Shown here piece after piece: positions 29,965-36,919 of a stretch of DNA of 54,565 nucleotides. How positions within the stretch are numbered: position 1 is the stretch's first letter; each line of letters opens with the position of its first letter. A program made the translations under genes and the position numbers. The notes beneath the pieces are model-generated. The model saw nothing but the letters and a program-made list of their open reading frames with translations. It did not search any database and was not told the DNA's origin. Source of the stretch: Gillisia limnaea DSM 15749 (GTDB taxonomy: Bacteria; Bacteroidota; Bacteroidia; Flavobacteriales; Flavobacteriaceae); NCBI RefSeq assembly GCF_000243235.1, contig NZ_JH594606.1, forward strand, positions 247,995-302,559. The letters are read 5' to 3'.

Positions 29965-30597
29965 CTAGAAACTTACCATCTTATTTTTAACTGCGAAAAG
30001 AACCAGCCCTACCCTGCTTTTTAATTCCAGCTTTTGAAACAAAGCTTCCCGGTAACCGTCAATGGTTTTTGGGCTAAGGTTCATCTCATCAGCAACTTGC
30101 TTATACGTGCGTTCACTACAGGCCAAATTGATAAATTCAATTTCCCGCTGACTAAAATTCTTAAATGTTTTTTGTTCCTTAGGACATTTAAGTGCTTCAG
30201 AAAAATCTTCATTTAAATAATAGCCGGAATTGCTTACACAATTAAGTGCAAAAAAGAATTCATCAGGCTCTATATCCTTCAACAAATACCCTCTACAACC
30301 GGTCTTTATCATTTTGATAATGATCTCTTCCTCGTGCTCCATAGTTAAAGCCAGCACTTTTTGCGAAGGATACTTATCCTTAAGCCACTCCATAGTCTCA
30401 ATGCCATTCAAAACCGGCATTCGAATATCGAGCAAGACTATGTCCGGATGTTTTTTATTGGCCAAAAAATAATCTATTAGTTCCTGTCCATTCTTAAATA
30501 CCGAGAGGACTTCGTATTCCTGAAAAGAATTCACAAGCCCCTTTAGGGATTGTGCAAAAAGATTGTGGTCATCAACAATCGCGATCGTTTTGTTCAT
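29965..30597 (-). CDS. NarL/LuxR-type response regulator
   Basis: The 210-residue cytoplasmic transcription factor has an N-terminal receiver domain with acidic pocket (DDH at 9-11) and phospho-acceptor Asp57 (IVLLDIRMP), conserved Thr (LALTMEHEEE) and Lys (GYLLKD). The C-terminal HTH of the LuxR type (FSQREIEFINLACSERTYKQ, then VADEMNLSPKTIDGYREAL) ends the protein. It overlaps the kinase gene by 4 bases, so the two form a cognate pair. Its targets may include the two nearby small-RNA promoters (inference from position and shared box). Confidence 0.94.
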   Translation of the reverse strand: MNKTIAIVDDHNLFAQSLKGLVNSFQEYEVLSVFKNGQELIDYFLANKKHPDIVLLDIRMPVLNGIETMEWLKDKYPSQKVLALTMEHEEEIIIKMIKTGCRGYLLKDIEPDEFFFALNCVSNSGYYLNEDFSEALKCPKEQKTFKNFSQREIEFINLACSERTYKQVADEMNLSPKTIDGYREALFQKLELKSRVGLVLFAVKNKMVSF

Positions 30598-31382
30598 TTT
30601 GATGCTATTTCCTTGATTGGATAAAGTAAATATAAAGAAGTTCCCATAGTTTCAGAAGATTTTAAACTAAAGTCTGTTTGAATAAGTTCTGCCCTACTTT
30701 TCATATTCAAAAGGCCGGAACTTTTTTGTACTTTCTCTGTGTTAAAACCGGTTCCATTATCTGATGCCTGAATTTTCAAGGCTACAGGAGTATAACAAAA
30801 TGATATCTCTAGTTTTTCCGCTTTTGAATGTTTAATCGCATTGCTACAAAATTCCTGAAGGATCCGGAATAGGATAATAGCATCTTTTTGAGGGAGCTCT
30901 ATGCTTTCTCCTGCACTATGAAATTCTGTTTCTAAAATATTTAGCCTTTTAAATCTGGAAAGTTCATTTTTAACCGAAGCTTCCAAGCCCGCATAATGAA
31001 CAACTTCGTTATTCAGGGATTTGGAAAGGGAACGTACTTCCTGCAGGGAATTTGCAACCACCGCTTTAATTTCGGCTATAGCAGATTTTCCCGGCTCTTC
31101 AGTTTTCCCGGCAAGCATATTAAGCTGCATATTGGCCACAGACAATAATTGCCCAATATTATCGTGCAGTTCCCAGCCTACATTCTTTAAGGTTTGTTCC
31201 TGTATTTCCAGTTTAGATTGGGTGAGTTCCTTTTCGAAACGTTTTTCAGCTTCAAATTTTTCATAAATAAGCTTATTTTTTCGCTTTTGAAAGGTGATAA
31301 AAAATACGATCCCGAAGGTTGTCAGGAATAAAATGACCACAATAAAATAAACTATAAGTATAAGTTCTTCTTTTGCCAGCAT
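30594..31382 (-). CDS. Sensor histidine kinase, HisKA_3 type with one membrane helix
   Basis: The 262-residue kinase has a single N-terminal membrane helix (about 8-30), a short coiled coil (35-66), the HisKA_3 dimerisation and phospho-acceptor motif with His73 (WELHDNIGQLLS) and an HATPase_c domain (N box FCSNAIKHS, G box ASDNGTGFN). It has no extracytoplasmic or PAS sensor domain, so the signal must come through another protein. The seven-helix membrane protein next door is the obvious candidate. It is the upstream gene of the kinase-regulator pair and has a promoter-like TATTTTTG about 32 bases before its start. Confidence 0.93.
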   Translation of the reverse strand: MLAKEELILIVYFIVVILFLTTFGIVFFITFQKRKNKLIYEKFEAEKRFEKELTQSKLEIQEQTLKNVGWELHDNIGQLLSVANMQLNMLAGKTEEPGKSAIAEIKAVVANSLQEVRSLSKSLNNEVVHYAGLEASVKNELSRFKRLNILETEFHSAGESIELPQKDAIILFRILQEFCSNAIKHSKAEKLEISFCYTPVALKIQASDNGTGFNTEKVQKSSGLLNMKSRAELIQTDFSLKSSETMGTSLYLLYPIKEIASK

Positions 31383-31457: not shown

Positions 31458-31508
31458 AAAAAAGGGGAAAAAGCCCCTTGTAGTCCTTTTTTACATGATC
31501 TACTTTCG
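31458..31508 (+). promoter_or_regulatory. Promoter of small RNA copy 1 with conserved upstream box
   Basis: AAAAAAGGGGAAAAA plus GCCCCTTG (31458-31480) contains the dyad AAGGGG...CCCCTT and ends in the -33 TTG (31478-31480). Exactly 20 bases later lies TACTTTCG (31501-31508), a one-mismatch -7 element. The second RNA copy has the same box with 21 of 23 bases identical and the same spacing. The dyad at about -55 to -33 is placed like an activator site. Confidence 0.62.
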
Positions 31509-31512
31509 TATT

Positions 31513-31617
31513 GTCATTTTAGTTAGCTAAAGTGTTTTGGGGAAAATAAAGTGTCGTCTGTAAAAAAAATATAAATAGGTAGGGCTATAAGTATTTTATT
31601 TTGACGGCACTTTTTTA
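31513..31617 (+). ncRNA. Small structured RNA, copy 1
   Basis: The RNA is about 105 nt, with no open frame. From 5' to 3' it has hairpin TTTAG-TTAG-CTAAA (31518-31531), an unpaired conserved TGTTTTGGGG (31532-31542), and a long 3' stem AAGTGTCGTC/GACGGCACTT (31549-31558 with 31603-31612) ending in a T run. An inner stem AAAATAT/GTATTTT leads to the apical ATAG-GTAGGG-CTAT. The long stem contains a T-G pair that would be an A-C mismatch on the other strand, which fixes the orientation as plus. Copy 2 (33056-33166) has the same plan with compensatory changes. Neighbouring genes are all on the minus strand, so this is a freestanding transcript. The Rfam Flavo-1 family should be compared; I cannot confirm identity. 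Confidence 0.68.
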
Positions 31618-31804
31618 TTTTCCCAATTTCTTTCAATCGATTTTTAAAATCTTAATCTATAAAATTTATTCTATATTTCATCTTTCCGGAACCAAAACCC
31701 TGTTATTTTGTAAGTATCCATTTTTTTTTAAAGGGTTTTAATTAAAAGGATTGTTCTTTTGGTATACGATAACCATTAATGCTTATAGGCATCTTTACAA
31801 ATTT

Positions 31805-32536
31805 TCAATATTCCAAATATACCCCGTTTGGCTTACTTTGCTTTGAGGAAATTATAAATCCCAAGATAAACATACCATACATAAACACATTGGAAAGAAA
31901 AATAATTAAGCCATGTAATGCGACAAAATCCGGACTTGCAGTGGTAAAATATTTGCTGTAAATAAATAAAGGGGTTACAACCAAATGCCAGATCAATCCC
32001 CCAACCGATACATAAAATACCAGATTTTTATAAAAATTCAGGATTTTGTCACTTTTGAGCATTTCATAATAATAGGCCATGATGCAAATTATTAAAATAA
32101 GGGTTCCAGAAACTGAAGTATAAGCAGAATATCCAATGAAGAAAATTTTGGAAAAAACAAGGTTTATTATTACTGTAATCCCGAAAAACAAAGCTGTAAA
32201 AGTTAATATACGCCTTATTTTAGCTGAATTTAGATGGAGAATAAAAAAGAAAAAATACGTCGTAAAGGACACCAAATAATAAGAATTATACAACCAGTAA
32301 TTTCTTTCAAATGGGGAATTCCTTAAAAATTCAAGTCCTTTATAATCAGTAAAGTATGCATATACTGCATATAAACCAACCATTTCTACAAACACCGTTA
32401 ACCATAAAAAATATACAAACAGCCGTATTATACTTTTGGGATGCGGAGTTTTAAATAAATAATAGGTACCTGCCAATGCAGCCAATAATTCGACAAAGTG
32501 TCCTATAAAAAGGTCTTCCAGGTAATATTCCAGCAA
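31805..32536 (-). CDS. Unrecognised seven-helix membrane protein
   Basis: I do not recognise the family. The 243-residue protein has about seven hydrophobic helices (10-28, 36-59, 81-101, 107-129, 134-158, 170-193, 204-229), short loops rich in Tyr and Phe, and no signal peptide or enzymatic motif. Small conserved-looking polar or charged residues lie within helices (Glu16, Glu51, His184). Its position between a small hypothetical gene (11 bases upstream) and a histidine kinase lacking a sensor domain suggests that it detects or transports the signal for that kinase (inference). A small-RNA gene lies between it and the kinase on the opposite strand. Confidence 0.72.
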   Translation of the reverse strand: MLEYYLEDLFIGHFVELLAALAGTYYLFKTPHPKSIIRLFVYFLWLTVFVEMVGLYAVYAYFTDYKGLEFLRNSPFERNYWLYNSYYLVSFTTYFFFFILHLNSAKIRRILTFTALFFGITVIINLVFSKIFFIGYSAYTSVSGTLILIICIMAYYYEMLKSDKILNFYKNLVFYVSVGGLIWHLVVTPLFIYSKYFTTASPDFVALHGLIIFLSNVFMYGMFILGFIISSKQSKPNGVYLEY

Positions 32537-32547
32537 TTCTTAAAAGA

Positions 32548-32925
32548 TTAATATTCTGTTGGAGGCCTGCCGCCCATAACAGTATTTAAGGGCTCGATCT
32601 CGTAATTGTTTTCATTCTTTTCCTCTTCTTCTAAGGCTTCTCCGCCTTTGGTAGGTGCCAAAAAAACGGTACTATAGCTTTTCTTTGGGCCGTTTTTTGG
32701 ATAAGCGGCAAAATAAATCCTAATTCCGGGATTTTCTATCCCTTGTTCCCTGGATTTTTCCTTTACATAATCAAGATATTCCTGAAGTTCTTCAACGCTA
32801 AATGAAAATTCGCGGGTATCTTCATATCCCTGACCCCGCAAGATCTCTTTTCCCCTGGAGTTTTTCCAGTTAGCCTGAAGACCCCTGGCCTCTTCTACAC
32901 TAATACATTTCTTTGGACGATTCAT
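32548..32925 (-). CDS. Small hypothetical cytoplasmic protein
   Basis: I do not recognise a characterised family. The 125 residues are hydrophilic, with no signal peptide or membrane helix. An ordered part (residues 8-92, SVEEARGLQANWKNSRG, FSVEELQEYLDYVKEKS, GIRIYFAAYPKNGPKKSYST, VFLAPT) is followed by an acidic, probably disordered tail ending in GGRPPTEY. The strand-helix pattern with a YFAAYP/VFLAP pair suggests a small alpha-beta domain. It is co-transcribed with the seven-helix protein (11-base spacer) and belongs to the putative sensory unit. Confidence 0.7.
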   Translation of the reverse strand: MNRPKKCISVEEARGLQANWKNSRGKEILRGQGYEDTREFSFSVEELQEYLDYVKEKSREQGIENPGIRIYFAAYPKNGPKKSYSTVFLAPTKGGEALEEEEKNENNYEIEPLNTVMGGRPPTEY

Positions 32926-33000
32926 ATTGTTTCTTATGCTTCTTAAAATTAAGTTAAGATAAAAATAGAAAAATAATTAGGTTAAACCTTCCCTAAATTT

Positions 33001-33051
33001 AAAAAAGGGGAAAAATACCCTTGTGCCAGCAAGGCTTTAAATTTACTTTTG
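33001..33051 (+). promoter_or_regulatory. Promoter of small RNA copy 2 with conserved upstream box
   Basis: AAAAAAGGGGAAAAA plus TACCCTTG (33001-33023) repeats the box of copy 1 and ends in the -33 TTG (33021-33023). After exactly 20 bases comes TACTTTTG (33044-33051), a full match to TAnnTTTG. Equal lengths of box, spacer and -7 element in both copies argue for selection. Confidence 0.65.
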
Positions 33052-33055
33052 TATT

Positions 33056-33166
33056 AATGTTTTAGTTAGCTAAAATGTTTTGGGGTTAAAAAGTGTCGTT
33101 AAAAGTGATAAGGGATTTGTAGGTAGGGCTGCAAAAAACTAATAATCACATAACGGCACTTTTTCG
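33056..33166 (+). ncRNA. Small structured RNA, copy 2
   Basis: This is the second copy of the element at 31513. The 5' hairpin TTTTAG-TTAG-CTAAAA lies at 33060-33075, followed by TGTTTTGGGG. The long stem is AAGTGTCGTTA/TAACGGCACTT (33091-33101 with 33151-33161) and ends in TTTTT. Inside, GTGAT/ATCAC forms a second stem, and TTTGTAG-GTAGGG-CTGCAAA (33116-33135) is a 7-base apical hairpin with the same GTAGGG loop as copy 1. Compared with copy 1, a C-G pair of the long stem is T-A, and an A-T pair of the apical stem is G-C, while pairing is kept. It lies between pxpC and the small hypothetical gene, opposite to both. Confidence 0.68.
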
Positions 33167-33217: not shown

Positions 33218-34090
33218 TTAGTGGTTTATATAGGTTGAGTCCGGCTTAAATAAGATTTTATCTCCCAAAACCTTTTGGGAAATTATATTCATCGCATAAT
33301 CACTTAACTGAAATATCCTTGGATACCCTCCGGTTGTTTGACAATCGCGCATTAATATAATCAAGCTTCCTGAAGGAGTTAATTGGACAGTACCCGGAAT
33401 TACAGGTCCTGTGATAATTGGACTTAGGTTATTTTCAATCGCTTCCAGAAGCTGGATTGCCATCCTGTTATTTTTTTTATCTACAGAGAATTCTGTCGAG
33501 GCAAGTAACTCCTTTTCTTTTACACTCAATAAACCATATTCGGGCCCGGGGAAAACATCTATCTCCTTTTGATATAAATATTCCGAATTTATTTTAACTG
33601 CAGAGTGCGTATCATGATATGAAAAAGAAGTGCTTTCAAAAGCCAGCTTCATACCTCTTGTCAATTTTGAAAAATCTGTAATTCCTTCATACCAGCTTTT
33701 ACTTTTAAGACTTTCAGAAGTTTTAAATCCACCGTTAATGGAAAGATATGCCCGGCAGCCAGATTTTCTTTTCCCAAAGGAAAGTATATCTCCGGCATTA
33801 ATCAAATGTATAGTATTATTGGAAACGGAAATTTTGTTTATTTCAGGAGAAAGATCAGCTCCTGTGATCACAATTTTTGCAGAAGCATTAAATTGCAGTT
33901 TTGGACCCATCTGGGTAATTTCAAGCACAGCCGAATCAACCGGATTATTCAAAATAATGCTCCCCATTTTGGCAGCATATTTATCCATATTTCCACTCAG
34001 GGGAACACCATATTTCAAAAATCCATAACGCCCCAAATCCTGAATTGTAGAAAATAAACCCGGCTGTAAAACTTCAATTTCAGACTTCAT
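33218..34090 (-). CDS. pxpC: 5-oxoprolinase subunit C (carboxyltransferase-like, KipA family)
   Basis: The 290-residue protein is the partner of PxpB in ATP-dependent opening of 5-oxoproline (pyroglutamate) to glutamate. The N-terminal VLQPGLFSTIQDLGRYGFLKYGVPLSG is represented by its core SGNMDKYAAKMGSIILNNP, typical of biotin-dependent carboxyltransferase-like proteins. IVITGADLSPEIN, GCRAYLSINGGF and the ILMRDCQTTGGYPRIFQL block near the C-terminus are also diagnostic. It overlaps pxpB by 11 bases, as expected for subunits made together. It ends the pxp operon. Confidence 0.92.
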   Translation of the reverse strand: MKSEIEVLQPGLFSTIQDLGRYGFLKYGVPLSGNMDKYAAKMGSIILNNPVDSAVLEITQMGPKLQFNASAKIVITGADLSPEINKISVSNNTIHLINAGDILSFGKRKSGCRAYLSINGGFKTSESLKSKSWYEGITDFSKLTRGMKLAFESTSFSYHDTHSAVKINSEYLYQKEIDVFPGPEYGLLSVKEKELLASTEFSVDKKNNRMAIQLLEAIENNLSPIITGPVIPGTVQLTPSGSLIILMRDCQTTGGYPRIFQLSDYAMNIISQKVLGDKILFKPDSTYINH

Positions 34091-34814
34091 AATTTTCCTT
34101 TTTTAAATGAAAATTACCCAGGCTTATTTCTTCTGAAATTTCATCAAACTCCTTTCGTGATATACTATAAAATTTCACTTTATCACCAGCCAATAATTCG
34201 CATGGAGGCTCGGTGTTTTTATCAAAGAAATCAACCGGGGAATTGCCTATAATTTGCCATCCACCGGGACTGGATTTCGGGTAGATTCCTGTCTGGTTTT
34301 CACCTATTCCAACAGCACCTTTCTCAACCTTCATTCTGGGCTGTTCCTTACGGGAAATCTGAAGCGCTTTATCCAGCCCTCCCAGGTATAAAAATCCGGG
34401 TAAGAATCCAATAAAATATACGGTATAAACAGGCTGTGTATGAAGGTGTATTATTTTTAAAACAGAGCACTTCTTTTGATTGGCTAAATATTCCAGATCC
34501 AATCCAAAGTCAAGATCATAGCATACCGGAATATGGTAAATTAAGGAGTTAACTTTTTTTGGTATATTCGTCGTATACACAAGCTCTTTTACAATCAAAA
34601 CCTCACTATAGACATCCTCTATATCTGAATTATAATAAATTAATAATGAGTTATATGTGTTAATCACTTCAACCTTTAATTCAATATAATATTCTTCTAT
34701 CACTGTTTTGAAAAAAAGAATTTTCTCCAGTAGTTTTTCATTGATCTCAGGCTCAAATTCAATCAAAATTGCCCACTCCCCCATCACTTTTACTTCTGGA
34801 AATTCCTTTTTCAT
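34080..34814 (-). CDS. pxpB: 5-oxoprolinase subunit B (KipI family)
   Basis: The 244-residue subunit has a variable N-terminal half and the conserved C-terminal catalytic half: HTQPVYTVYFIGFLPGFLYLG (core IGFLPGFLYLGGLD), AVGIGENQTGIYPKSSPGGW and the GNSPVDFFD block. Family members form a complex with PxpA and PxpC. The Bacillus homologue KipI inhibits a kinase, but in this three-gene setting oxoprolinase is the supported role. The start overlaps the pxpA stop by 4 bases. Confidence 0.92.
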   Translation of the reverse strand: MKKEFPEVKVMGEWAILIEFEPEINEKLLEKILFFKTVIEEYYIELKVEVINTYNSLLIYYNSDIEDVYSEVLIVKELVYTTNIPKKVNSLIYHIPVCYDLDFGLDLEYLANQKKCSVLKIIHLHTQPVYTVYFIGFLPGFLYLGGLDKALQISRKEQPRMKVEKGAVGIGENQTGIYPKSSPGGWQIIGNSPVDFFDKNTEPPCELLAGDKVKFYSISRKEFDEISEEISLGNFHLKKENYEV

Positions 34815-35548
34815 GAACGTAAAATTTGGATGTTTTTCTTCTTGAATCTCTGCTGCAAATATTTCAATATTTCCACCGCATTTGGTGTGTCACTATGAAG
34901 GCAAAACGTGGATGCAAAACAATGTATATTCTTTTGGTTTTCACAGCGTATTTTTCCTTCGTTAAACATCAAAAAAAGATGTTGAAAAACAGCCTCTTTT
35001 TTAGTGATCAATGCATTTGGTTTATCACGGGAAAGCAGTTGGTAATTCTGTTGATAATTCCGGTCTGCAAAGGCTTCAAAAACGACTTCAATTTTCCCCT
35101 CTGCAAGACGGGAAATCACCGAATTTTGGGGTGCATAAATCGGGAATTTATCTTCAAATTCCAGGATAGAATCTATAACAATCTGAGCGATTTTTTCATC
35201 GATAGAAGCATCATTATAAAGAGCTCCATGTGGTTTGATATGGGTAAGTTTTCCGCCTTCCGCTTCTGCAATTTGTTTCAAACTTAAAATTTGAGCAACC
35301 AGACTTTGTTGCAAATTTTCGGGAGTCATCTCAAGGGTTTTTCTTCCGAAGTTTTCCTTATCGGGATACGACGGATGCGCTCCCATTTCCACATTATTTT
35401 CCATGGCAAGAACAACGGTATCATGCATGCTTTCCACCGTACCGGCGTGACCGCCACAGGCAATATTACAGGCCGAGATCAAGGGCATTAATTGCGCATC
35501 AAATTCTCCTCCTTCTCCAAGATCACAGTTGATATGTATATATTTCAT
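34811..35548 (-). CDS. pxpA: 5-oxoprolinase subunit A (LamB/YcsF family)
   Basis: The 245-residue protein starts MKYIHINCDLGEGGEFD, the LamB/YcsF signature (INCDLGEG with metal-binding Asp). It also has NIACGGHAG, MGAHPSYPDKENFGR, and HIKPHGALYND. It cleaves the phosphorylated oxoproline in the complex (family knowledge). The open frame continues upstream to 35632, but those 28 extra residues are translated repeat element, so the ATG at 35548 is chosen. It is preceded by the family 2 repeat and the Nramp-like gene. Confidence 0.92.
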   Translation of the reverse strand: MKYIHINCDLGEGGEFDAQLMPLISACNIACGGHAGTVESMHDTVVLAMENNVEMGAHPSYPDKENFGRKTLEMTPENLQQSLVAQILSLKQIAEAEGGKLTHIKPHGALYNDASIDEKIAQIVIDSILEFEDKFPIYAPQNSVISRLAEGKIEVVFEAFADRNYQQNYQLLSRDKPNALITKKEAVFQHLFLMFNEGKIRCENQKNIHCFASTFCLHSDTPNAVEILKYLQQRFKKKNIQILRS

Positions 35549-35558
35549 ATGTAGATGT

Positions 35559-35685
35559 TTATTGTTTTTTATTAGGCTCCCTCCCGGTAGCCCGGGAACA
35601 ATTCTCATATCTTCATCGGTGTTTGTATCCAATACCCGTTATGCTCCCCGGGGTTTTTATCGAATTCCTTTTATGCTCATTTCAT
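35559..35685 (-). repeat. Intercistronic repeat, family 2, copy before pxpA
   Basis: The minus strand begins ATGAAATGAGCATAA and contains a tandem duplication of a unit of about 32 bases: GAGCATAA, GG-ATT-GATA, AAAC-CCG occurs twice. It continues CAAACACCGATGAAGATAT-GAATT as in the leuA-leuC copy, then a TTCCCGG-GCTA-CCGGGAG hairpin, GGGAGCCTAA and the AATAAAAAACAATA tail. The hairpin resembles that of family 1 copies A and B. The element fills the Nramp-pxpA spacer. Confidence 0.6.
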
Positions 35686-35695
35686 AATACGATTT

Positions 35696-36919
35696 TTAAA
35701 AGCCCTCTAAAACGGTATAAATAGATTTCGCCCCAAGAAAGATGGTGATCCCAATTATGAGAATCCCCAAAATATTTTGCCTCAGTGTATTGCGATATTC
35801 CCCCATAACCGAAGACCGGTTAACAATCCAGAATAGAAATATTGCAATTACAGGCAATAACAAACCATTGGCGATTTGAGCAAACTGTATTATTTCAACA
35901 GGTTTTAACTGAAGGGAAGAGAAAAACACTCCCATTATCAGGATTGCAGCCCAAACCGATTTAAATTTAAGGGATTTTAATCCTTTTTCCCAACCCAGGC
36001 AACCTTTTACCACATAAGCAGCTGCCAATGGAGCTGTGATGGAAGAAGTAATCCCGGCGGCCAATAAACCTACCGCGATAAACAGGGTAGCATATTCCCC
36101 AAATAAAGGTTTTAGTCCCAGGGCCAGGTCTGCAGCAGAAGTAACATCATCTAAATTGGGAACCGCAGCTGTTATCACAATGGCCATAGAAACCAGTCCT
36201 CCCAGTATAATAGCGATGCCGAGTTCTCTTCTGGCAATTTTAAGGTCGGAAGGTAACTTCCATTTCTCACCAACAAGAGAAGCGTGCAAAAATAAATTGT
36301 AAGGCACCACGGTGGTTCCTACAAGTGCGATTACCGTTAAAATACCTGCAGATCCGGTTGTTGGTATAAACAATCCCTTTAAAACCTGAAAAAAATCCGG
36401 TTTGGTAAGAAATGCGGTAATAAGAAATGAAATACTCATCAATCCAACCAGGCCAATAAAAACCCGCTCCAGGATTTTATAATTCCCAATTGCAAGCAAA
36501 GCAAATGCGATTCCACCAACAATAACACTCCATAAATTCAGCGTGAAATTACCTAATTCCAGGGTTAAGGGAGTAGTGATTGCAGTTATTCCCAAAACTG
36601 CACCTGTAATATTTCCCGCCTCATAAGCGGCGTTGCCTATTACAATTGCAGAAAAAATAAGAATAATAGCAAGAACTCTTAGCGTCGGGTTTTTTATTTC
36701 TTCCCGAATGCATTCACTTAAACCCTTTTGCGCTATAATCCCAAGCCTTGCGGCCATTTCCTGCAGAATCACACAGGCTATTACCGAAAGTAATAATGCC
36801 CATAAAAGGGCATATTGAAAAGTAACCCCTGCAAGCGTGCAAACAGTAACCGTTCCCGGGCCAATAAATGCGGCCGAAACCAATACGCCCGGACCTACAT
36901 TTTTTAACCAGTTTTTCAC
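35696..36919 (-). CDS. Nramp-family transporter lacking the canonical metal-site motifs
   Basis: This 407-residue inner-membrane protein has about 11 helices with the LeuT-type fold of Nramp proteins (VVPYNLFLHASLVGEKW, helix 6, and the amphipathic repeats). Canonical metal transporters have Asp-Pro-Gly-Asn in helix 1 and Met-Pro-His in helix 6. Here these read Gly20-Pro21-Gly22-Thr23 and Val205-Pro206-Tyr207, so the Asp, Asn and Met metal ligands are gone. It lies directly before pxpABC, as does ycsG in the corresponding Bacillus locus, so it could import 5-oxoproline or a related substrate rather than manganese (inference). Its ATG overlaps the DUF2891 gene by 4 bases. Confidence 0.85.
   Translation of the reverse strand: MKNWLKNVGPGVLVSAAFIGPGTVTVCTLAGVTFQYALLWALLLSVIACVILQEMAARLGIIAQKGLSECIREEIKNPTLRVLAIILIFSAIVIGNAAYEAGNITGAVLGITAITTPLTLELGNFTLNLWSVIVGGIAFALLAIGNYKILERVFIGLVGLMSISFLITAFLTKPDFFQVLKGLFIPTTGSAGILTVIALVGTTVVPYNLFLHASLVGEKWKLPSDLKIARRELGIAIILGGLVSMAIVITAAVPNLDDVTSAADLALGLKPLFGEYATLFIAVGLLAAGITSSITAPLAAAYVVKGCLGWEKGLKSLKFKSVWAAILIMGVFFSSLQLKPVEIIQFAQIANGLLLPVIAIFLFWIVNRSSVMGEYRNTLRQNILGILIIGITIFLGAKSIYTVLEGF

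Follow-up and report, generated by a model that had tools for sequence, protein, structure and literature searches.

Multicopy small RNAs with G-rich loops linked to a two-component locus in Gillisia limnaea and related Flavobacteriaceae

We analysed two short elements in a 54,565-nt stretch of the Gillisia limnaea DSM 15749 genome (contig NZ_JH594606.1, positions 247,995 to 302,559; hereafter the window) and found that they are members of a small RNA (sRNA) family without Rfam match. At the level of sequence, this family is defined by a conserved RNA (5' hairpin, linker and long terminator stem with a GURGGG loop), by a fixed unit of dyad and promoter, and by linkage to one locus, which encodes a two-component system, a 243-aa membrane protein and a 125-aa protein. 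We regard it as fairly probable that the window elements are response-regulator-activated, trans-acting sRNAs of about 105 nt, which resemble LhrC and the csRNAs but carry G-rich motifs.

Structure and distribution of the sRNA family

An earlier note, made from the window sequence alone, described twin plus-strand elements about 1.5 kb apart among minus-strand genes. We found the two to be direct repeats at a distance of 1543 nt, on the plus strand and with minus-strand genes around them, i.e. copy 1 (31513..31617, about 104 nt) and copy 2 (33056..33166, about 110 nt), which match a covariance model of the family with 94.2 and 102.7 bits, respectively. Both share an upstream box, a promoter of the form TTG-N20-TACTTT(C/T)G, a 5' hairpin (in copy 1 at 31515..31534, helix 1 of the fold), the linker UGUUUUGGGG (31533..31542 and 33076..33085) and a terminator stem (stem-loops at 31548..31616 and 33087..33164). 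As the note had seen, the long terminator stem carries an apical GUAGGG loop in both copies (31579-31584 and 33123-33128). The exchanges that it had reported between the copies, C-G to U-A in the long stem and A-U to G-C in the apical stem, are both genuine. Its 5' hairpin and UGUUUUGGGG are also present in both; UGUUUUGGGG is not entirely unpaired as proposed, its first letters lengthening the 5' stem in the minimum free energy (MFE) structure.

The MFE is -27.0 kcal/mol for copy 1 and -31.4 kcal/mol for copy 2, with z scores of -4.6 and -5.6 against dinucleotide shuffles; none of 200 shuffles reached the native value of either copy. The opposite strands of copies 1 and 2 likewise beat their own shuffles (z of -5.2 and -4.1), which means that the strand cannot be assigned from folding energy alone. 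A 24-nt core, searched with up to 3 mismatches, occurs at two sites only in the 3.97-Mb genome (reversed control, 0).

To describe the family, a pattern search was run on 60 genomes, the window's own included, and gave matches in 11. Those of six genomes (again including the window's) yielded eight good copies, from which covariance model R1 was built; those of the other five were dropped, the surrounding features being absent. R1 retrieved the sRNA from 16/16 Gillisia genomes searched (weakest best E, 1.7e-6) and, at E below 1e-10, from 8 of 397 sampled Flavobacteriaceae genomes, so that the covariance-model search suggested in the earlier note places the family in four of 237 genera. A broader model, R2, recovers the same eight of the 397 genomes. 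The filters of both scans were of a stricter kind, at the cost of weak matches, and diverged relatives in other genera may have been missed. When a collection covering 84,980 species was scanned exactly for a degenerate core, 32 stretches were obtained, all from Christiangramia/Gramella, Salegentibacter, Gillisia and Zunongwangia. Weak family matches in G405, G090, G098, G125 and G344 were read by eye and judged to be chance; two from the R2 scan (G293, G381) and weak Gillisia matches outside the locus (e.g. G004:C1:2152213, E 0.0035) were taken, as groups, to be chance.

Further analyses relied on a set of 77 copies (78 matches from 47 non-duplicate sources, minus one antisense match, L043:8100-8205). 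Four weak matches fell below its cut-off (L175:5503, L178:7109, L042:7702 and L177:5615). The 47 stretches hold one copy (25 stretches), two (14) or three (8), and a weaker fourth copy was seen in one array (L175:5503, E 2.4e-4). Neighbouring copies are 0.2-2.4 kb apart, with about 200-240 nt in most Gillisia arrays. In one Gillisia genome, L042 6293-6389 (-) and 7702-7799 (-) are weak and probably degenerate second and third copies, each preceded by a dyad.

At the gathering score, Rfam 15 gave no match in the window and the loci of five relatives; at E<=5, seven chance-like matches only were obtained, none of them to Flavo-1, the family against which a comparison had been proposed. The pattern TAGGTAGGGCTNTTAATAT was absent from viral contigs. 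No report of this RNA was met in a literature search, most subscription papers being outside the reach of that search.

Pairing in homologues, on which the earlier note had made its proposal of functional RNAs with covarying stems depend, is kept in 91.4% of 2431 cells of the model-fitted alignment of the 77 copies, and the 75 further distinct relatives strongly support that proposal. Double-sided changes occur in 25/32 pairs, and 368 cells carry one (shuffle mean, 106). The covariation score is 0.466, compared with 0.182 after shuffling and at most 0.120 when partners are slid by one to three columns. As such an alignment leans to its model, an alignment-free count was added for the 68 copies with an exact GTAGGG. 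Both loop-closing pairs form in 68/68 (shuffle means, 57.7 and 33.6), and positions 7, 8 and 9 of the apical stem pair in 67, 65 and 66 copies (shuffle means, 29.4, 45.5 and 33.8); positions 3, 4 and 6 pair no better than in shuffles, the apical stem therefore being interrupted there in many copies. Cells with G-U outnumber those with A-C by 229 to 22 across the 77 copies, and this excess fixes the strand.

A mobile or repetitive element of the MITE (miniature inverted-repeat transposable element) or REP (repetitive extragenic palindrome) kind, carrying the hairpin by chance, would also be repeated and rich in inverted repeats. We give this explanation practically no credit, since the genome holds two copies only, the same locus is occupied in four genera, and the double-sided pair changes and the strand bias speak for an RNA.

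The hexaloop GURGGG stays constant while stem and flanks turn over (G in 76, U in 77, R in 76 and each of the three final G in 77 of the 77 copies; the R is A in 69 copies and G in 7, one copy having a gap there). The emphasis of the earlier note on UGUUUUGGGG is thus to be shifted towards this loop, kept in nearly all copies: the exact linker TGTTTTGGGG is found in just 44/77 and is absent from the inspected Gillisia array copies. Peptide coding from the linker was rejected, neither sequence nor frame being conserved: the open reading frame (ORF) that starts there spans 4-49 aa, and its sequence beyond VFWGKKV is unconserved among the 44 copies having that motif. Sense TGTTTTGGGG was also seen inside ORFs of 333-337 aa in several genomes (L191, L202, L204, L205, L215, L219 and L236).

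Promoter, dyad and gene context

Upstream of copy 1 lies the dyad AAGGGGAAAAAGCCCCTT (31462..31479, +; G000:C2:279456-279473), a putative response-regulator operator, and then the promoter (31478..31508, +; TTG at 31478-31480, 20-nt spacer, TACTTTCG at 31501-31508). Copy 2 has the dyad AAGGGGAAAAATACCCTT (33005..33022, +; G000:C2:280999-281016), located some 80 nt before the start of the divergent 125-aa gene, and a promoter at 33021..33051 (+; TTG at 33021-33023, 20-nt spacer, TACTTTTG at 33044-33051). The promoter TTG-20-TAnnTTTG of the earlier note is therefore right for copy 2 and for the spacing, TACTTTCG of copy 1 being one letter off. In Flavobacterium psychrophilum, the sigma-A element was mapped as TAnnTTTG, spanning -12 to -5 (PMC9723704), and its position leads to the predicted starts at about 31513 and 33056.

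The whole unit is fixed in the family. A permissive dyad, GGG-N4..8-CCC, is found within 85 nt upstream of 77/77 copies, and in 76/77 its end, CCC(C)TT(G/T), is separated by exactly 20 nt from an element of the TAnnTT type, with a pattern that permitted 14-22 nt; 59 of these 76 copies have the TTG form.

The sRNAs belong to a conserved locus. In the window, all four of its genes are on the minus strand. A histidine kinase with HisKA_3 and HATPase_c domains (30594..31382) is divergent from copy 1, and the end of its ORF is overlapped by a few bases by the frame of a NarL-type response regulator with REC and GerE domains (29965..30597), which scores 139.2 bits with the MctR model, 113.7 bits with NarL and 111.5 bits with GacA/UvrY, all under the curated cut-offs. 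The 243-aa membrane protein (31805..32536; seven long helices predicted, predicted local distance difference test score, pLDDT, of 91) has no Pfam or NCBIfam match, and its relatives are just 30-48% identical (22 compared). The 125-aa protein (32548..32925) has no Pfam or NCBIfam match either, nor a PDB fold match at E<=0.001 (model pLDDT, 85); its family has an invariant PP at the C-terminus, where the last residue is a near-invariant Y. The earlier note had overlooked the linked two-component system, the putative operator dyad and the multicopy cassette.

The regulator was found in 10/10 and the kinase in 9/10 loci of the first fetched set, and both in 9/10 further Gillisia loci, the tenth of which starts at a contig end. 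Apart from some variations, all four genera share this gene order, and several genomes have further copies of the 125-aa and membrane-protein genes that were duplicated along with the RNA (e.g. Christiangramia crocea, L052, with three RNAs). A search for the closest divergent gene up to 400 nt away from the dyad gave the 125-aa gene for 40 of the 77 copies, the membrane-protein gene for 7 and the kinase gene for 6; among those 40, dyad and 125-aa gene are 67-98 nt apart in 27. Most inspected relatives have the locus bordered, as in the window (33218-36919), by genes for carboxyltransferase A/B, LamB_YcsF and Nramp, which we take to be a 5-oxoprolinase-like set.

The 125-aa family is far more widespread, being found in 233/397 Flavobacteriaceae genomes (E<=1e-5). 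Of the best 30 loci with this gene, 7 came from RNA-bearing genomes and 23 from genomes without detected RNA; R1 run with filters off on 23 other-genus loci holding the 125-aa gene gave no convincing RNA (best E, 0.16). In the 23 loci without detected RNA, the adjoining membrane-protein gene is matched in 23/23 and the kinase in 22/23 (L104 ends too early), and a related dyad, of the AGGAAAAATCCT kind, precedes the 125-aa gene in 21/23, at 73-87 nt from the matched gene start in 15 of these 21. Controls gave 2/23 for the reversed dyad and a mean of 0.6 (maximum, 5) for mononucleotide shuffles. As far as sequence comparison tells, the dyad belongs to the locus and not to the RNA alone. We infer that the sRNA promoter arose beside an old operator of the locus, whose own regulator would be the likeliest binder. 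In L090 and L112, from genera without detected RNA, several tandem dyads stand upstream of the 125-aa gene.

Partial losses in Zunongwangia bear on these links. Two of its four distinct loci (L048, L051, which equals L076, L080 and L082), namely L048 and L082, have kept regulator, dyad and RNA and have lost the kinase, 125-aa and membrane-protein genes. Their regulators look intact and align over the full length with the others. L048 8950-10155 and L082 4407-5900 include about 0.5-0.7 kb without any ORF above 53 aa, a 28% kinase-like trace being left in L082, and G138, the genome of L048, is not among the 125-aa-family positives of the 397-genome scan. The two losses may represent a single event. 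They favour a link between regulator and RNA over one between RNA and 125-aa protein.

Dyads were also inspected away from the sRNAs (31 sites in 30 chosen stretches). Thirteen lie inside ORFs of at least 100 aa; among the other 18, six have the 20-nt promoter spacing on one strand (L160, L161, one in L162, L164, L165 and L255) and five a spacing of 18, 19 or 21. Three of the 20-nt-spaced dyads, two from Salegentibacter and one from Christiangramia, adjoin sucB (NCBIfam equivalog; L160 ~2454 (-), L164 2541 (+) and L165 2388 (-)) and are followed by a hydrophobic ORF of 34-37 aa with a VL(S/A)LN motif, then by a hairpin with a T-run; this ORF possibly encodes a small unannotated membrane protein belonging to that regulon. 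The genome of the window itself (L159 2486-5035, G000:C2) has a dyad without 20-nt promoter at 223 nt before a curlin-repeat gene, which is followed by a CsgE match. The curlin leader, a candidate target, contains CCCTAC and can pair with the linker of either RNA over 10 contiguous bp, a pairing equalled by 3 and 1 of 500 mononucleotide-shuffled leaders in this post hoc comparison on one genome; pairing of the apical loop with this leader was no better than with shuffles (210 and 308 of 500). A wider dyad regulon is proposed tentatively.

Possible modes of action

In the reading that we favour, the response regulator of the locus would bind the dyad just upstream of -33 and switch on the sRNAs, and the same regulator would switch on the operon of the 125-aa and membrane-protein genes, usually in the opposite direction. 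The exposed G-rich segments (the GURGGG loop and, where present, UUUUGGGG) might then pair with C-rich mRNA sites elsewhere, without Hfq; this less certain step is a guess from the conservation of the exposed loop and from the analogy with LhrC. How strong the output is would depend on the number of copies (one to three, perhaps four), as has been proposed for LhrC1-5.

Several observations weigh against regulator-driven, trans-acting sRNAs. On the side of the operator, the 18-nt dyad is no commoner genome-wide than its reverse (67 sites vs 86 in ten genomes), dyads were also seen in 10/115 other 250-nt windows of the same 23 loci (some of which overlap the counted region of L112), and a regulator other than that of the locus could bind them. 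As to the linkage, 24/77 copies have no divergent kinase, membrane-protein or 125-aa gene within 400 nt of the dyad (inner array copies, stretch ends and other layouts), RNA and 125-aa gene share a strand in three Salegentibacter loci (L047, L062 and L071), and several 8-kb stretches (L060, L064, L065, L072 and others) end before the kinase or the regulator. On the side of the targets, the linker complement CCCCAAAACA does not exceed its reverse in frequency in the six genomes searched, and its matches lie mostly inside or antisense to ORFs, with no common leader among those examined; CCCTAC was found near 3/276 local gene starts.

The main alternative, offered in the earlier note beside pairing with C-rich targets, is protein titration. 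The G-rich loops would then serve as decoys for an RNA-binding protein, much as RsmY/Z and CsrB capture CsrA, and the regulator would act mainly through this capture. The loop kept while stem and flanks change, the multiple copies, the NarL/GacA-class regulator and the lack of a single conserved mRNA target among the sites seen would all suit it. On the other hand, each RNA has just one or two motifs, and searches of five genomes found neither CsrA (PF02599) nor Hfq (PF17209), with positive controls detected for both, nor RRM_1 (PF00076), with a Bacteroides control detected. Titration of CsrA is therefore unlikely; a novel binder, such as the 125-aa protein, may be titrated instead, but two Zunongwangia loci keep the RNA without the 125-aa gene. 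Overall, we hold titration to be an unlikely explanation, if one to be kept in mind.

Instead of acting in trans, the RNA could exert feedback in cis on the linked operon, i.e. on the kinase, regulator, membrane-protein or 125-aa mRNAs. The constant linkage and the fact that several genomes have duplicated the RNA along with the 125-aa/membrane-protein pair are what such feedback would predict, but the RNAs do not overlap operon genes in antisense in the window, CCCTAC is rare near the starts of these genes (within -80..+40, membrane 2/77, 125-aa 0/46, kinase 0/37 and regulator 1/39), and the RNA survives the loss of most of the operon. We consider this quite improbable. Still less credible, at a few chances in a hundred, is a riboswitch, attenuator or leader of a downstream gene; it would explain why promoter, structure and terminator come in series and why the next gene is on the same strand in the three Salegentibacter loci, but the terminator closes the unit, the next genes of the window are on the opposite strand, the linker ORF is unconserved and no Rfam match was found.

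Beyond regulator-activated, trans-acting sRNAs as favoured here, a more far-reaching proposal is possible, which we hold to be doubtful: a Gac/Rsm-like switch of independent origin in Flavobacteriaceae. In one clade, the widespread locus would have gained a G-loop sRNA on its ancestral operator and amplified it to three or four copies, with or without the 125-aa and membrane-protein partners. The RNA would have become a principal output of the regulator and would act without Hfq, CsrA or RRM proteins, through GURGGG on C-rich mRNAs or through an unnamed RNA-binding protein; regulator and RNA would have persisted where the kinase and the partners were lost.

Comparison with known systems

The comparisons below rest, for the cited systems, on the accessible parts of the sources. 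LhrC1-5 of Listeria monocytogenes have two stem-loops, carry UCCC-type motifs in a loop, in a stretch and in the terminator loop, and need LisRK (PMC4132741). The window family is similarly multicopy, with two stem-loops and a single-stranded stretch, and the expression of LhrC is two-component-dependent, as we propose for the window family. The LhrC motif, however, is C-rich (UCCC) and binds the Shine-Dalgarno region, whereas that of the window family is G-rich (GURGGG, UUUUGGGG); unlike in LhrC, the regulator genes of the window family adjoin the sRNAs and a clear dyad is present, the sequences having been compared through Rfam only.

In Streptococcus, the similar sRNAs csRNA1-5/Ccn (87-151 nt) are all controlled by a single response regulator, that of CiaRH (PMC7602753). 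Several similar sRNAs are a feature of the window family also, sequence comparison again being through Rfam only. The csRNA operator and motif differ from those of the window family. RsmY/Z and CsrB/C have an inverted-repeat operator and a loop motif of the GGA type. Like RsmY/RsmZ with GacA and CsrB/C with UvrY, the window family combines a NarL/GacA-class regulator and a putative inverted-repeat operator with redundant sRNAs and conserved loops; unlike them, it has a GURGGG loop, which is not of the GGA type, and CsrA was not found in the five genomes.

FopS/GibS of Bacteroides thetaiotaomicron, likewise from Bacteroidota, are multicopy paralogous sRNAs acting at start codons. FopS, which RbpB binds, differs from the window family in combining a single-stranded 5' seed with one terminator hairpin (PMC11697453). 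The window family has no Rfam match (Rfam 15 may not hold FopS), and RRM_1 was not found in the five genomes. A trans-acting flavobacterial sRNA, Rfp18, is described in Flavobacterium psychrophilum (PMC9723704); the accessible account names no two-component link, and the likeness is one of description only.

In terms of functional class, with no homology implied, the several structured RNAs with own promoter and terminator that define the LhrC/csRNA kind are present here (77 copies, 47 stretches). The Csr/Rsm sponge class requires CsrA and the Hfq-dependent class Hfq, and neither protein was found in the five genomes searched for each. The family is probably of a known functional kind, that of response-regulator-controlled multicopy sRNAs, and is unusual by its G-rich motif and by its link to an unnamed protein module.

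To our knowledge, post-transcriptional control has been little explored in flavobacteria. The locus described here would form a compact circuit of one regulator, one dyad and one to few sRNAs, and its relatives make up a natural series that runs from gain through amplification to partial loss. The 125-aa family is thereby placed in a recognisable signalling locus.

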